A program made the position numbers and the translations under genes. Positions 369 to 47,178 of a stretch of DNA of 48,828 nt are shown here, piece by piece. Source of the stretch: Planctomycetota bacterium (GTDB lineage Bacteria > Planctomycetota > Planctomycetia > Gemmatales > Gemmataceae); the NCBI GenBank assembly GCA_016191165.1, contig JACPPF010000112.1, positions 1 to 48,828 of the forward strand, read 5' to 3'. The first letter of the stretch is position 1. The number at the start of each line of letters is the position of its first letter. Below the pieces are notes generated by a model. It worked only from the letters and a program-made list of their open reading frames with translations, was not told where the DNA came from and searched no databases.

Positions 369-2246
369 ATGAAAAAACAAACCGTGCTGAAAAGTCGGGC
401 AGCCCTGAAGGTTGAAGACCCTATCCCGGCAGTCGGGTACGGGCGCATGTCTACCGAGGATCAAGAACTTTCGCCGGAGCAGCAGCGCCGGGAAGTTGAG
501 GAGTATGCCAAGCGGAATAACTACAAGATTCTGCGCTGGTACTTCGACGAAGGGATTTCGGCGAGCAAGGGCGACGAGCTACGGATGGAGTATCAGCAAA
601 TGCTGGTTGACAGCAACGCAAAAGACTTCCGGGCCGTCCTTTGCTGGGCAACTTCCCGGTTTACTCGCAATCATCCCCACGAAGCCGCAACCGGCAAGTG
701 CATTCTCAAGAACAACGGCATCTGGCTGGATACCGTCAAGGAAGGCAAAATCGACTGGAACAGCTTCGAGGGGATGATTAAGGACAGTATCTACACGATC
801 ATCGACCATACCTATTCGGTCGGCTTGGGCAAAGACAGTCTCCGGGGCCGAAGAAACACCTTCCTAGCCGGGGGCTACCCATACGGCAATATCCCGTTCG
901 GCTACAACCATCTTTACGTTTCCGGGACGGAACGCAGGGAAGTCCGTCGAGGGACGAAGACGAAAAACCTTCGGGGCTGGATGCAGTTTCTAGCCATCGT
1001 CCCGGAGGAGGCCGAGATCGTTCGGCGAATCTTCCGGCTGTACGTCGATGAAGACAAGTCCTTGTGCGCAATCGCTCGGTTGCTAAATCGTGAACTCGTC
1101 CCCGGCCCCGGCAAGGGGGTTAATGCCGTCTGGACAGTCCAGAACGTCCGTACCCGTTTGCGCTGCCCCGCCTATGCTCGAATCAGCCGGATCGGTGGGA
1201 AGCCCGAACACTACCGCAAGGCGCACAACCGGCTTGATCTGGAAGAACGACAAGGCGAATGGGAGGCGATCATCGAACGGGAGATATGGGACGAAGCTCA
1301 GTACAAGCTGGACGGCAACAAAGGCCATCCCCAGGAAGGAAAATCCGGGCCGTTGCAGGGCATTTTGCGTTGCGGTTGCTGCGGTCACGTTCTGCACAAA
1401 GAGAACCCCCGCAAGGCCGACGATCCGAGAGGCAATAAGTATCGTTGCAACAGCACGGGGAAGGGTCTGTTGACGAAGTGCAAGCGTTGGACGTGCTACG
1501 AATCCGAAATCATGCCAACGATTCTTACCGAGCTTGTCAAGGCCGTTGACGAGGAAATCATACTACTGTTGAGTGCGATGCCGGAGCTACCGGGCCGGAC
1601 AACCAATCGGGAAGTTCTGCAAGCCCATCTTCTCAGCCTGGAAGACAGCATTTCGGAAGCTGCCGGGGCTTTCATCGACCCGAAGGTTTCTCAGGCCATG
1701 AAGACGGCCCTGCAAAAAAAGGTTGAAGACCTTGAAGGCGAAGTCGTCGAAACCCGAAGACGGTTGAACGCCATGTCCGTGGCCGAGAGGGAAGGGGGCA
1801 TGGAATCGTTCCGGGCTTGGTTTGAAAAGATTCGCCCGCAACTGGTATGGATCGGCACGGACGGCTCCAGCGCAACCGATGGGATGGACGGCTATGTTTT
1901 GACGCACACGGCAGACGGCAACCTGTTTTCGTCTGTTCACAAGTTTGCCATGCCTTCCGCTGGAACAGGAGAATTCGGCAAGGGCAAATTGCTCTCGACC
2001 GTCCCTGGTGTTCAGAGCGATCCGGGAAAACTCCGGGCCTTGCTCAAGAGGCTGAACGTCGAAATTCGGGTCTACTGGCGTCCCGTAACCGAACAGGAAC
2101 GGGCAGCCCAGCGGAAGGGCCGGGGGAATGGTCGTCGTGGTCGGAGGGCCGAAACGGTCATTGACAAGGCTCGGTTGAAAGTCGAAATAAATTGCGGTTC
2201 AGAGGATGGCCGAAATGCTTCGGCAGATCGCCGTGATACTTCTTGA
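369..2246 (+). CDS. Large serine recombinase (site-specific integrase of a mobile element)
   Basis: A 625-residue large serine recombinase that probably integrates and excises the element it sits on. The N-terminal resolvase domain carries the YGRMS motif with catalytic Ser28, followed by an SRFTRN segment. A 'Recombinase' domain follows (GGYPYGNIPFGYN through the VPEEAEIVRRIFRLY helix). Next comes a zinc beta-ribbon with a CGCC pair and a later pair of Cys around residues 335-380, then a coiled-coil stretch. The ATG at 369 was chosen because AAGGAG lies 8 nt upstream and family similarity begins just after it; the frame is open further upstream but that part looks non-coding. The gene is at the extreme right end of its element: its last roughly 10 codons and its TGA stop fall in the neighbouring host gene read antisense, so the C-terminus after integration is chimeric. 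Confidence 0.93.
   Translation: MKKQTVLKSRAALKVEDPIPAVGYGRMSTEDQELSPEQQRREVEEYAKRNNYKILRWYFDEGISASKGDELRMEYQQMLVDSNAKDFRAVLCWATSRFTRNHPHEAATGKCILKNNGIWLDTVKEGKIDWNSFEGMIKDSIYTIIDHTYSVGLGKDSLRGRRNTFLAGGYPYGNIPFGYNHLYVSGTERREVRRGTKTKNLRGWMQFLAIVPEEAEIVRRIFRLYVDEDKSLCAIARLLNRELVPGPGKGVNAVWTVQNVRTRLRCPAYARISRIGGKPEHYRKAHNRLDLEERQGEWEAIIEREIWDEAQYKLDGNKGHPQEGKSGPLQGILRCGCCGHVLHKENPRKADDPRGNKYRCNSTGKGLLTKCKRWTCYESEIMPTILTELVKAVDEEIILLLSAMPELPGRTTNREVLQAHLLSLEDSISEAAGAFIDPKVSQAMKTALQKKVEDLEGEVVETRRRLNAMSVAEREGGMESFRAWFEKIRPQLVWIGTDGSSATDGMDGYVLTHTADGNLFSSVHKFAMPSAGTGEFGKGKLLSTVPGVQSDPGKLRALLKRLNVEIRVYWRPVTEQERAAQRKGRGNGRRGRRAETVIDKARLKVEINCGSEDGRNASADRRDTS
2205..2217. other. Probable right attachment junction (element/host boundary)
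   Basis: Minus-strand coding similarity of the truncated secreted protein runs through the residues LPKH, encoded down to about 2215. It then changes to low-quality sequence that overlaps the recombinase gene end. This is where a host gene meets the element. The core sequence cannot be defined because the left end of the element is outside the window. The placement is inference, based partly on my recollection of how homologues continue after LPKH. Confidence 0.5.
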
Positions 2247-2505
2247 TCCGGGTGTATTCGTCGTCTTTCCAGCCTGGGCCGAGCAAGAAGTCCATGATGT
2301 GCAGTCCAAAGCCCAGGTCACGAGCGCCGGTCTTCTTGTCCAGCAAGCTCCCGGCAGCGATGCCGGAGACGTACCCCTTCTTGTTGATCTTCGCCTGGAG
2401 AGCGTCGGTTTCGATCAGGACATAGTTCTCCGTCTCCTGCACCTTGATCGGGGCTTCGGCCTGCCCGACCGCAAGGCAAGCGACGGCAATTAGTGCTGCA
2501 TTCAT
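2215..2505 (-). pseudogene. Truncated secreted protein, 5' part of a gene disrupted by the element
   Basis: The open frame runs from ATG at 2505 and encodes a short signal peptide (MNAALIAVACLAVGQAEA). About 80 residues of a mature domain rich in Gly and charged residues follow (for example AKINKKGYVSGIAAGS and GFGLHIMDFLLGPGW). I associate this start with uncharacterised secreted proteins of planctomycetes that are several hundred residues long. Here the frame drifts after LPKH and ends at 2158, inside the antisense of the recombinase gene. The 3' part of the gene should lie at the left end of the element, outside the window. A protein of 115 residues could still be made, but it would lack most of the domain. 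Confidence 0.6.
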
Positions 2506-2675
2506 TATGAATCTCTTTTCACGGTTGACTGTTCCGAGCTTGAGCTAGTTTAGCTGGACGGGCCGGGGAAAGCGAGCGGGCCGCCGCCCGCACCGGGAAA
2601 GCCCCGGAAAAATGGTCACGCCCCCGGGAATGTGTATAATCCGAGAAGCCCGCAACCTTCCGGGTTGGACAAGTA

Positions 2676-4259
2676 ATGCGCACCGTATACGCCTGCGTCC
2701 TGGATGTCGTCGTGCGGTCGCCGGAGACGAGCGCCCAGGGGTTTGAACGGCTCTGGACGACCGCGGCTCAATGGATCGAAGCTTATTATCGCGATCGCTA
2801 CCAGGTCGAATGCCGGGTTGTCCCGGATCAACCCAAGTTGTCGCCGCGGCCACAACATGGGGTGCAGGGGCAGCGAGCCGGTGTCGCCGGCGTATGTGAG
2901 CTGGCGGCGCTGGAGTGGAGCTATCCCGACGAACTCGACGCGGGGTTGCAGTGGATTCACGCCTGCCAGTTTGCCCGGAATGGCCCTAAACTCGAAGCCT
3001 CGGTGAGCATCCGCATCGTTTCGACGCATCCGATTGCCAAGCCCCTTCATTACAATCTCGAACGCCCGGCGATCGTCGATCAGATCTTGCACGGTTTTCC
3101 ATGTGCCATCGGCAAGTCGCCGATCCCGCTCAAGCCGCGTGAGCTGGAGAAATTCGACGCCGACTTGTTCGTGGAGGAAACGCTGTGTTCGGCTGACCGC
3201 TGGTTGCCCGTCGTGGTGATCTCGCCCCAGCAGGGGGTGCGGGATTACCTGCTCGATCCGGCCGAACTCCAGCAGAAGCTGTTGGGGCATGCTCAGGTGG
3301 TGGCGCTACGCGATGTCGGCGCCGGCCGGGCGTGGACCGATGCCCTGGGCGTCAAGGAGCTGTCGTGTTATCTCGGTGCGGTTCGGCTCTATTGGCCTGG
3401 ATTCACGCGGCGGTCCAAGCCGTCGGAGCATCCGCTCTACATGGCCGATTCGATCCGCTGGCATATCGAGCAGCACCAGCCGCTGGGGCAGCACCTATTT
3501 CGCTCGCTGGTGGCGGTATCCGGGTTTCGCTTTTCCAATCCGCCGACCGCTCGCCTGGTGCGCGAGGCGATCGACAGCGACCGGCACGCCCGATTCCACA
3601 CGTTGTTGAAAAACGCCAAGGCTCACGAGGAGAGCGGCCAGATTCTTCAAGAGCTGGAGCGAGCCTGGGATCAGATCAAGATACTTGAACAAGAACGAAA
3701 CGAAGCCCGCAATCAGGCGGCGGAGTTGACGCGCGAGCTGGAGGCGCAGAAGGAAGCCTGGCAGGGCTACCGCGGGCAACGTCCGGCAGCCAGTGAGGCG
3801 GACACGCCGGCGCCGCGCGGACCCATCAAGACGGTTGCGGAAGCCGTCGAACGCGCCGCCGCCGACTTTCCCGATACACTCACGTTTCTGCCCGATGCCA
3901 TCGAGTCCGCGCGGCAGTCGCCCTACCGCTGGCCTGAAAAAGTCTACGCCCTGTTCGAGGCCCTCGCCGAGTTAACCCACCTTTGGCAACAAAAAGGCAG
4001 CCTCGGCACCGGCTGGCACGACGCCCTCAAGCCCAAGGGTTTCGATTATGCCGAGTTCATCTCGCCAACGGCCAAGGGCAAGTACGGCGACGAATACACG
4101 TTCCGCTACGAGGGCGTCCCGGTGCTGTTCGAGCATCACGTCACCCTCGGCGCCCGCAGTGCCGACACCTGCATCTCCACGCACTGGTTTCGCGACGAAG
4201 CAAGGAAACGCCTGGTGATCGGCTGGTGCGGGAAGCACCTGAGCAATACGCAGAGTTGA
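2676..4259 (+). CDS. Unrecognised two-module protein with central coiled coil
   Basis: A 527-residue cytoplasmic protein with no signal peptide or membrane segment. Three parts are visible. The N-terminal module (about 1-300) includes hydrophobic strands such as RWLPVVVISP and a GAVRLYWPGF motif. A Glu/Gln/Arg-rich coiled coil covers about 305-375. The C-terminal module (about 390-527) has a KGKYGDEYTF motif, FEHHVTLG, and a terminal LVIGWCGKHLSNT. From memory, both end motifs (YNGAVRxYWPG-like and the IGxxGxHL end) recur in uncharacterised proteins of many bacteria, some of them near defence genes, but I cannot name a family. The gene stands alone between an integrated element and a RAYT transposon unit, which fits a defence or other accessory role. 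That role is inferred from context only. The start is the first ATG of the conserved reading frame; there is no clear Shine-Dalgarno site. Confidence 0.75.
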   Translation: MRTVYACVLDVVVRSPETSAQGFERLWTTAAQWIEAYYRDRYQVECRVVPDQPKLSPRPQHGVQGQRAGVAGVCELAALEWSYPDELDAGLQWIHACQFARNGPKLEASVSIRIVSTHPIAKPLHYNLERPAIVDQILHGFPCAIGKSPIPLKPRELEKFDADLFVEETLCSADRWLPVVVISPQQGVRDYLLDPAELQQKLLGHAQVVALRDVGAGRAWTDALGVKELSCYLGAVRLYWPGFTRRSKPSEHPLYMADSIRWHIEQHQPLGQHLFRSLVAVSGFRFSNPPTARLVREAIDSDRHARFHTLLKNAKAHEESGQILQELERAWDQIKILEQERNEARNQAAELTRELEAQKEAWQGYRGQRPAASEADTPAPRGPIKTVAEAVERAAADFPDTLTFLPDAIESARQSPYRWPEKVYALFEALAELTHLWQQKGSLGTGWHDALKPKGFDYAEFISPTAKGKYGDEYTFRYEGVPVLFEHHVTLGARSADTCISTHWFRDEARKRLVIGWCGKHLSNTQS

Positions 4260-44722: not shown

Positions 44723-45256
44723 TTACTTCTTGATGGTGCCGTTGAAACCGGCCTTGCGGAGCGCGCTCAGGACGGCGCTGGCCTCGAGGTCGGCGCCCTC
44801 GATGATAACCGTGGGCTGCGGGCCTTTGCCTTCGTAGCTGATGGTGCTGCCCTTGAAGATCGCCTTGATCGCGTTCTTGCAAGCGCCGCAGCAGACGTGC
44901 ACCTTGCTTACGGCGACCTTGGTGACCTTGTCGCCTTTCTTGGCGCCGGCAACGTCAACCTTGATCGCCTTCCCGTCTTCCGTGGCCTTGCCGTAGAAGC
45001 CGCCGTCGAAAAGGGCCTTGACCCCCGCCTTGGCAGCGGCGCTGTCCTTGGCGGTAAACGCGACGATCTTGGTCTTGGCATCGGCCGTGACTTCGGAAAC
45101 GCCTTCCACCTTGGCCAGAATTTTCTTGGCGATGTTCACACACTGTCCGCAACAGATGTGCGGCCCCTTGACCTCAACGCTGCCAGCGTTGGCCGAGCCT
45201 GCGCCAGCCACGACCACTGCCAAGCCAGCCAGCAACGCACCGAAAATAGAACGCAT
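44723..45256 (-). CDS. Exported tandem heavy-metal-associated (HMA) domain protein
   Basis: A 177-residue periplasmic protein. A signal peptide (MRSIFGALLAGLAVVVAGAG with SANAG) is followed by two HMA-like ferredoxin folds. Each metal loop has an extra Cys compared with the usual MxCxxC: HICCGQC (Cys35, Cys36, Cys39) and HVCCGACKNAI (Cys122, Cys123, Cys126). The second half of each fold is visible (VSEVTADAKTKIVAF, TVIIEGADLEASAVLSALRK). It probably binds copper or another soft metal outside the cytoplasm. The start at 45256 follows AAGGAG about 8 nt upstream. It has its own terminator and stands as a single gene. Confidence 0.87.
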   Translation of the reverse strand: MRSIFGALLAGLAVVVAGAGSANAGSVEVKGPHICCGQCVNIAKKILAKVEGVSEVTADAKTKIVAFTAKDSAAAKAGVKALFDGGFYGKATEDGKAIKVDVAGAKKGDKVTKVAVSKVHVCCGACKNAIKAIFKGSTISYEGKGPQPTVIIEGADLEASAVLSALRKAGFNGTIKK

Positions 45257-45938
45257 GGGAATAGCTCCTTGTGAAATTAGTTTGCCCTGGTGGGTATTAA
45301 GGGGAATGTACCAAAATCACGAGCGGATGCAATAGGTCAGTTGGTGCAAAATCGAAGAAGCTGACTTATACTCCGCGCGATCGGGATTAACCCATGTACC
45401 AGCCCGCAGCGTAAGCAAGGGTCTGCTCAAATTACCCTTGCTCAATTGGACAGCGCCACTTTTCAATTTGGGGGAGCAAAGAACCGTGGGGTCAACAAGC
45501 GTTTGACATGGAGCACCGAAGGTGCGCAAATAATATAGCCCAGGGCAAGCGAAGCGCCGCCCTGGGTCGTGGCGCCGGGAAGACGAAAAGCCCTGAAAGG
45601 GGCGCCACAACACGGGACGTCGACCTTGTTGGGCCCTTTCAGGGCATGGTCCGTGGTGCGACGAATCACCCAGGGCGGCGCTGCGCTTGCCCTGGGCCTC
45701 AATATTTGCGCACCGTCGGTGCTCAACGAAACGCACTCTACATTCCCAGGATTCTTGACGTTCCCACTTTGAAAAGTGGTGCTGTCCAATTAAGCTACGG
45801 GCTGGTAAATCCCAAGGTGTCAAACCTGCCCGTGCAAGGTATATCCAAGCCTGAACGCCAGCGAAGCGTCAAGCGCCGCCCCTCGGGTTTGGAAAAACGA
45901 AATGGCACGTAGGGCACACGCCCACGGAAGGACCGGCG
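45257..45938. other. Long gene-free region dominated by a nested palindrome
   Basis: 682 bp without a real gene. Most of it (45444-45791) is a large multi-armed inverted repeat. Open frames here are symmetric by-products of the palindrome. The flanks carry a weaker CCAGCCCGCAGCGTAAGC motif (45402) and GCTACGGGCTGG (45794) that also face each other. Confidence 0.8.
45444..45791. repeat. 350-bp nested inverted repeat (MITE-like or structured RNA)
   Basis: Three concentric inverted pairs share one axis: outer arms 45444-45466 and 45769-45791 (22 of 23 complementary), middle arms 45511-45567 and 45668-45724 (about 50 of 57), inner arms 45590-45601 and 45633-45644 (GCCCTGAAAGGG and its complement). 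Middle arms begin GAGCACCG and contain AGCCCAGGGC. Many differences are single compensable positions in the arms. Confidence 0.88.
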
Positions 45939-46967
45939 TCATCGCCGCGCCACCGGCAAGGCTGACAGACGCTCGTTCAAGATTCGCTCCCAGACGACGG
46001 GATAAATCACGTCGAGCTGCGCCAGCGGTTGCTTGGCGAGGAGCCAGTGCGTTTGGGCTTCCTTGCTCGCGCGTAGCGGCATGGAGACGGGAATCCGGTT
46101 GCGGTCGCCCAGAACGGTGTTTATCCGGTCGTGAAACCGTTCCGCATGGGCGTGGCGGATGTGGCTGGCGAATCGCTTCCAGTTGACGTCGCCGGAGATT
46201 CGGCTGGTGCTGACGGTCTTGGCGGACTTGCGGATGTCGAGGGCCCAGCGGGCCTCGTTTTTCAGCGTGCCGGCGTTGGTCGGGCCGGCCAGGGCGTGAA
46301 CGACTGCGCCGTCCTCAAGGCAGAAATAGCTGGCGACGTTACCGCCGACTTTTTGGCCGCCGATGATCTGAAACTTACCCACCTTGAGGTAAGTGCTGAC
46401 AAAGTTGTCGTTGATATAGGCGGCCACAAGCGGATCGCTCAGAGCGTTCACACGGAACGCATCGGCGTTGTTTCAGGTGAATTCCTGATCTTCAAGGTTT
46501 CCGGAGAGGTGGACCATGAACACCATCTTCTTCTCGGCCCGCGCACGTTTGAACGCGTCGGTTGGGTCCTTCAGGAATTTGACCTCGGTGCCGATACGAG
46601 CGCATTCAACGAACTCGTCGTTGGCCTCTGCCTTCGGCGCGGCTTTCTTGGGAGCGATCTGGGCGAGCGGGGCCGCTGGTTTCTTTGGTTCGCCAAGCGG
46701 CTCCTGATTGACGATCTTTCCCGGCAGCGGCGGCAGCGGTTCGTCGTCCAGGTCGATCGGTTCCGTGCCCGCGGTCATCACGGCATACAGGCCGATGAAC
46801 AGCGTCGCCGCCAGCCAGGTGACGCAACCGCCGATGAGGATCTTGGTCCAGGGCAGGGTCTCTCGCCACTTGCCCCCTTTTCTCTTGACGCGCCGGGCAT
46901 AAACGGCGGGTTGAACCAGAATGGCATTGGGAAGAGCGCTGGGATCGGGAGAGTTCGGCTGAGACAT
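45939..46967 (-). CDS. Membrane-anchored thioredoxin-like protein, candidate selenoprotein (in-frame TGA as Sec165)
   Basis: One frame of 342 residues is interrupted only by TGA at 46473-46475 (codon 165). The N-terminus has a basic patch and one membrane helix (ILIGGCVTWLAATLFIGLYA, about 43-62), with the C-terminal part outside the cytoplasm. The part around the TGA looks like a thioredoxin-fold strand and redox site: KKMVFMVHLSGNLEDQEFT, TGA, NNADAFRVNALSDPLVAAYI and then NDNFVSTYLKVGKF. The remainder (GNVASYFCLEDGAVVHALAG) keeps thioredoxin-like character. A SECIS-like hairpin follows the TGA directly. The ATG at 46967 has GGAGG 5 nt upstream. From memory, relatives carry Cys at this site. 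If not selenocysteine, it is a pseudogene. Confidence 0.7.
46444..46475 (-). promoter_or_regulatory. Candidate bacterial SECIS hairpin with its UGA
   Basis: In the mRNA, UGA is followed by 12 nt and then a perfect 6-bp stem GCGUUC-CGUGU-GAACGC. The 5-nt loop starts 18 nt after the UGA and has G as its second base. This meets the general description of bacterial SECIS elements (stem-loop just downstream of the UGA, G in the first two loop positions). It could arise by chance, so the call is tied to the selenoprotein hypothesis. Confidence 0.5.
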
Positions 46968-47178
46968 TGGAGCCTCCAAAATGCACCAGCTTGAATGGCG
47001 ACTGTCGGAAAGGCCACGCCAACAGCTATTCTACCGTCGGCCCGTTGGCGAGACAAGTCATTTCTACGCTGAATTTCCCGCTCGAAACGTTTGCCTTTTT
47101 TTTTGACGCGTACAATGAAACGTGTTCTTTGCCGGGGAACCAACCCGTGGGCCATGGACTTGTTCCAGGAAAGGCAGG

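Follow-up and report, generated by a model that had tools for sequence, protein, structure and literature searches.

A likely new thioredoxin-fold selenoprotein family with a T-U-N-N-A motif in Planctomycetota

Thioredoxin-fold domains whose reactive residue opens the active-site helix at its N-terminal end are known from DsbD-gamma (PDB 1vrs), DsbH (2ju5), 3f9u and the Pfam family Thioredox_DsbH (PF03190, 7tkv). The planctomycete protein studied here shares with them the fold (Z 9.6-11 over about 100-125 residues) and the position of the reactive residue, but it carries T-U-N-N-A where they have CxxC, shows 9-21% identity and stays below the Pfam cut-offs. Among the catalogued thioredoxin-like (seleno)proteins, NF041383 (VPGUxxT thioredoxin-like) and NF041199 (Trx7/PDZ) give a weak local match with a few distant members, at most 18 bits, which is far from their cut-offs of 275 and 300 bits; their motifs VPGU and CxxU also differ from TUNNA. 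A single Sec without neighbouring Cys is likewise found in GPX-like (UxxT) and UXX-star selenoproteins, i.e., in other families with other motifs, which we set apart by the listed motif only (PMC13188914). According to the deep-Sep study, Cys homologues now seem to exist for every known selenoprotein, and its method filters out selenoproteins that lack them (PMC12013277).

We compared the protein and its relatives with these resources. At the cut-off of 27 bits, Thioredoxin_7 (PF13899) and Thioredox_DsbH (PF03190) do not match the protein, and its relatives reach at most 23.2 bits. NCBIfam release 20, selenoprotein families included, yields no score over cut-off for it either, and the cut-offs of both collections are reached neither by the 24 aligned relatives nor by ten distant ones. 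A PDB sequence search returned nothing relevant, and no TUNNA-type motif is among the 119 prokaryotic selenoprotein families tabulated in a 2026 review (PMC13188914). Our literature search found no paper on the family, while the candidates of the Porphyra planctomycete paper (PMC4807772, table S9) may overlap with it. We thus consider it likely that this is a previously unlisted selenoprotein family of thioredoxin fold, distributed phylum-wide in planctomycetes.

The window, i.e., the whole analysed stretch of 48,828 nt, carries the putative selenoprotein gene at 45939-46967 on the minus strand. Its frame comprises 342 codons plus a terminal TGA stop, with a Shine-Dalgarno-like GGAGG (46973-46977, minus strand, direct reading) 5 nt ahead of the ATG at 46967, and contains a single internal stop, namely the TGA of codon 165 (46473-46475, minus strand; motif FT-U-NNADAFR), which adjoins the active-site helix and would encode Sec165. 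The initial annotation had described this lone TGA in an otherwise unbroken frame, good coding character on either side of it, and a gene that annotation software would split. All of this could be reproduced: the TGA is seen directly, dN/dS relative to the closest homologue is about 0.08 for the domain part before the TGA and 0.21 after it (with dS near saturation), and mechanical ORF calling does cut the gene at the TGA. Genome G006 holds a full-length homologue with 59% identity and a TGA at the equivalent codon.

An AlphaFold model built on 58 sequences (mean pLDDT 82) divides the protein into three parts. A membrane anchor helix is predicted near the N-terminus (residues 40-65; 46773-46850, minus strand), preceded by basic residues and followed by a proline/alanine-rich linker. 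The central thioredoxin-fold domain (residues ~117-250; 46218-46619, minus strand) is modelled with pLDDT mostly of 90-98, and Foldseek and VIA-align group it with 3f9u, DsbD-gamma, DsbH, AGR2/3 and thioredoxins (VIA-align Z of 11.1 for 3f9u, 9.7 for DsbD-gamma and 9.6 for DsbH). A family-conserved helical region follows (residues 263-330; 45978-46181, minus strand; model helices 263-282, 302-312 and 318-329), in which H274, H307, Y322 and L330 are conserved. Since basic residues precede the anchor (positive-inside rule) and a paralogue group has signal-peptide-like N-termini, the domain is probably extracytoplasmic.

Within the domain, strand 160-164 is followed by Sec165 and helix 166-176, i.e., the TGA takes the classic catalytic position, and T164, U165, N166, N167 and A168 do not vary. 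The earlier assignment of the TGA to a thioredoxin redox residue is therefore borne out as far as fold and position are concerned. The active site shows no CxxC, UxxC or CxxU motif, however, such that the redox role itself is deduced from fold and position. A candidate resolving Cys, and thus a possible partner of Sec165, is Cys216 (GGNVASYFC; 46320-46322, minus strand), which is Cys in 100% of the 58 aligned Sec homologues; its conservation is confined to the gene's own subfamily and is lost outside.

With regard to the surroundings of the gene, we find no conserved neighbours. The largest neighbour clusters comprise 9 loci at scattered distances, none including this locus, and we rejected neighbourhood conservation as a functional clue. 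The downstream ORF at 44726-45256 (minus strand) looks, judged by its sequence alone, like a secreted protein whose repeats are of the heavy-metal-associated (CCxxC-like) type, and its adjacency to the selenoprotein gene is not conserved. Just 3' of the gene (45437-45803), two copies of a tRNA-like stretch, AATTGGACAGCNCCACTTTTCAA, in opposite orientation flank an inverted repeat, which scores just short of the threshold for Acido-Lenti-1 RNA (36.6 vs 37 bits). The stretch has 8 matches genome-wide with at most 2 mismatches (also on contigs C4, C59, C73, C106 and C147 of the host genome G000), compared to 0 for the reversed control, and looks like a dispersed element. Its TCA-like loop made it a candidate for a local suppressor tRNA, which we rejected given that ARAGORN calls no tRNA anywhere in the window and that the repeat is dispersed.

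To which extent the TGA is shared was assessed on homologues. Here, the query presented U as Cys, such that Cys homologues were not disfavoured. The read-through protein has matches in 17 of the 41 related genomes (counting the host), nearly all with exactly one TGA inside the match. The TGA falls at a single column with the motif [FYLC]-T-U-N-N-A-x-A-[LF]-R. When 84,980 species genomes were scanned, 67 loci came up, all of which (67/67) carry TGA at the aligned column and belong to Planctomycetota by record title, mostly to Gemmataceae but also to Isosphaeraceae and Pirellulales. The TGA-bearing loci come from dozens of species, i.e., from MAGs plus one isolate, Gemmata sp. IIL30 (L110). Over all loci fetched before stop-free relatives were targeted, the column reads U in 124 rows (92 non-redundant cores), C in 2 and S in 1, and neither TAA nor TAG ever occurs there among the aligned members. 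The selenoprotein reading of the initial annotation stands, while its lone candidate turns out to be one member of a large family.

The host genome itself holds a second copy, found with the read-through query (L002, G000:C162), in which a signal-peptide-like N-terminus replaces the anchor while TGA and hairpin are kept; it represents a second, widespread subfamily. Another in-frame TGA gene of the same genome (L194:1160-2410, on G000:C155; 417 codons, GHPLGC-V-U-NNGVVGRELTF) is only weakly similar to the family, has no NCBIfam match and is a further selenoprotein candidate.

A profile search of 392 Planctomycetota genomes revealed distant subfamilies that also use TGA, with the motifs [TC]-U-TNARLAR, GL-U-SAGHSLR, LT-U-SAAHAMR and C-U-LAAHALR. 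At one locus (L143:1297-2007 and 1985-2896, minus strand), two superfamily genes with one in-frame TGA each (CULAAHALR, SULGGHLMR) are adjacent and slightly overlap. A targeted fetch of stop-free relatives brought out a Cys subfamily with the motif S-C-ANSR[FY]FR, whose Sec column is TGC in 9/9 loci examined. Aligning homologues gave full-length relatives with TGA at the equivalent codon and more distant ones with Cys. The Cys homologues (L131, L134, L177-L185) share the domain and the aligned Cys, but they lie outside the gene's subfamily, and selB is without a match in some of their genomes. Within the TUNNA subfamily, no Cys form is among the homologues found. Its sole Ser member (L026, G020:C201; FTSENVEKF), which sits on a long branch, is possibly a redox-dead form. 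The looser stop-free relatives have Ser or Ala at the Sec column; four of those with Ser (L187-L189, L192) keep a YFC/YIC-like strand, and their genomes also hold Sec members.

In a tree of 46 rows, all 10 Cys rows fall into a single monophyletic group (support 100/99) nested among Sec rows, and the TUNNA clade (100/98), which contains this gene, consists of Sec rows and the long-branched Ser row. With a midpoint root, some long branches and sampling confined to the phylum, the tree does no more than suggest Sec ancestry. We put forward tentatively, and at slightly less than even chances, that Sec is ancestral in a phylum-wide planctomycete superfamily, with a single Sec-to-Cys origin and a large TUNNA branch without any Cys form.

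Downstream of the TGA, the initial annotation had noted a hairpin starting 12 nt after it, with a 6-bp stem and a 5-nt loop whose second base is G, which is found exactly as described (GCGUUC-CGUGU-GAACGC; 46444-46460, minus strand). The bacterial SECIS (bSECIS) model places an apical loop of 3-9 nt, with G in one of its first two positions, 16-37 nt after the UGA (PMC13188914). In our fold, the loop CGUGU lies at 18 nt and the MFE is -12.7 kcal/mol. Taken by itself, the folding z-score of -1.8 is weak. Hits of a generic bSECIS-like search follow 17% of random TGAs as well, and roughly one in two terminal TGA stops, where the hairpins are presumably terminators. We therefore rejected the hairpin as stand-alone proof of Sec; its support has to come from conservation.

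To this end, we scored the stem (nt 13-18 paired with nt 24-29 after the UGA) in 70 distinct TUNNA genes. Of the stem cells, 89.0% are paired, compared to 71.7% (sd 1.6, max 76.9, n=1000) in synonymous recodings that follow each gene's own codon usage, and none of 5000 codon shuffles within amino-acid columns reaches the observed pairing. Pair 15:27, for which both partners are third codon positions, is GC in 57, AT in 5, CG in 2 and TA in 1 of the genes, i.e., it covaries at silent sites. The Arg codon of the loop is CGT in 60/70 genes, while CGT makes up 208 of the 1485 Arg codons in those ORFs overall, and CGC, their commonest Arg codon, is never used there (0/70). Less favourably, pair 16:26 is a C.A mismatch in 33/70 hairpins, and a strict six-pair bSECIS filter passes no more than 36/70, albeit over twice the null (16, max 26). 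In the distant subfamilies, 24/24 genes show the hairpin (synonymous null mean 2.4, max 7). Their loop lies 22-24 nt after the UGA, i.e., shifted by about 5 nt, and is mostly CGUG. The loop sequence is thus kept while it shifts against the protein alignment, which argues for selection on the hairpin at the RNA level.

The Sec machinery was expected in the host if the reading was right, and selA (560 bits), selB (362 bits) and tRNA-Sec (selC, 73 bits; called by ARAGORN as tRNA-SeC with UCA anticodon) are all present. The fourth gene, selD, does not exceed the cut-off in the host assembly (95% complete, 183 contigs) but does so in 6/6 congener genomes, in several of which selD itself carries a TGA; the simplest reading is a gap in the 183-contig assembly. 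Among the family-positive related genomes, 15/17 have selB, the two without it being 75% and 84% complete. Over the 392 Planctomycetota genomes, selB is found in 51/53 genomes with a confident TGA-containing member vs 208/339 others (Fisher p of about 2e-8, with genomes not corrected for relatedness and counts read off two lists).

Taken together, the conserved TGA column, selA/selB/selC, the RNA-level conservation of the hairpin and the distant Cys forms support Sec at codon 165, and its incorporation is very likely as judged from sequence comparison. Mechanical ORF calling would instead end translation at the TGA and start a separate downstream ORF from the GTG at 46451. Such a split would cut the thioredoxin domain between strand and active-site helix, the 124 rows share TGA with no TAA or TAG in its place, and the Cys homologues of distant subfamilies read straight through, which renders two genes extremely unlikely. 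While an isolated stop in just one MAG might also stem from error, e.g., from a misread TGC or TGG, or mark a pseudogene, the identical TGA recurs across dozens of independent assemblies as well as in own-genome paralogues, and selection is purifying downstream of it; we consider the chance of this practically nil. Decoding of the UGA by another route, i.e., a reassigned code, Trp/Cys misreading or programmed read-through by another suppressor, could appeal to the selD absent from the assembly. It is very unlikely given selA, selB and tRNA-Sec in the host, selD in the six congeners, the co-occurrence with selB across the phylum, the SECIS-like RNA conservation and the Cys at the aligned column of distant homologues. 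Furthermore, UGA is not reassigned in the host code, because the same gene also ends with TGA.

The function of the selenol is a separate question. It might bind a metal or metalloid or transfer selenium instead of catalysing thiol/peroxide redox reactions, in accordance with a single selenol without CxxC, the probable envelope location and the putatively HMA-like protein encoded at 44726-45256. Both the fold and the place of Sec agree with the redox site of DsbD-gamma and DsbH, though, and the HMA-like neighbour is not conserved, such that we regard this role as rather unlikely. As the most likely role, we favour that of a cell-envelope oxidoreductase working with a single selenol. The UGA of codon 165 would be decoded as Sec by tRNA-Sec(UCA) and SelB, directed, on comparative grounds, by the SECIS hairpin 12 nt downstream. 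The product would be a membrane-anchored, extracytoplasmic thioredoxin-fold domain with a single selenol at the N-terminal end of the active-site helix, in the T-U-N-N-A motif. Its selenolate may act on a substrate by reducing a peroxide, disulfide or sulfenic acid; the selenol would then be regenerated by another thiol, i.e., an external reductant or the internal Cys216, rather than by a CxxC partner. The protein would be a member of a Planctomycetota superfamily with Sec as the usual residue and Cys in one nested clade. We hold this reading as a whole, i.e., Sec165 inserted via tRNA-Sec(UCA), SelB and SECIS into a membrane-anchored single-selenol protein of a Sec-dominated superfamily, to be highly probable.

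If so, an uncatalogued selenoprotein superfamily with several subfamilies is added, with a confident TGA member in about 53/392 Planctomycetota genomes. Its genes get split or truncated by ordinary annotation. Predictors that need a Cys or known Sec relative, such as deep-Sep (PMC12013277), would discard the TUNNA branch because it has no Cys forms, which would explain why it has been missed so far. The CGUG loop at two offsets from the UGA provides a natural series for studying SelB recognition in Planctomycetota, and the superfamily could account for part of the phylum's Sec machinery.
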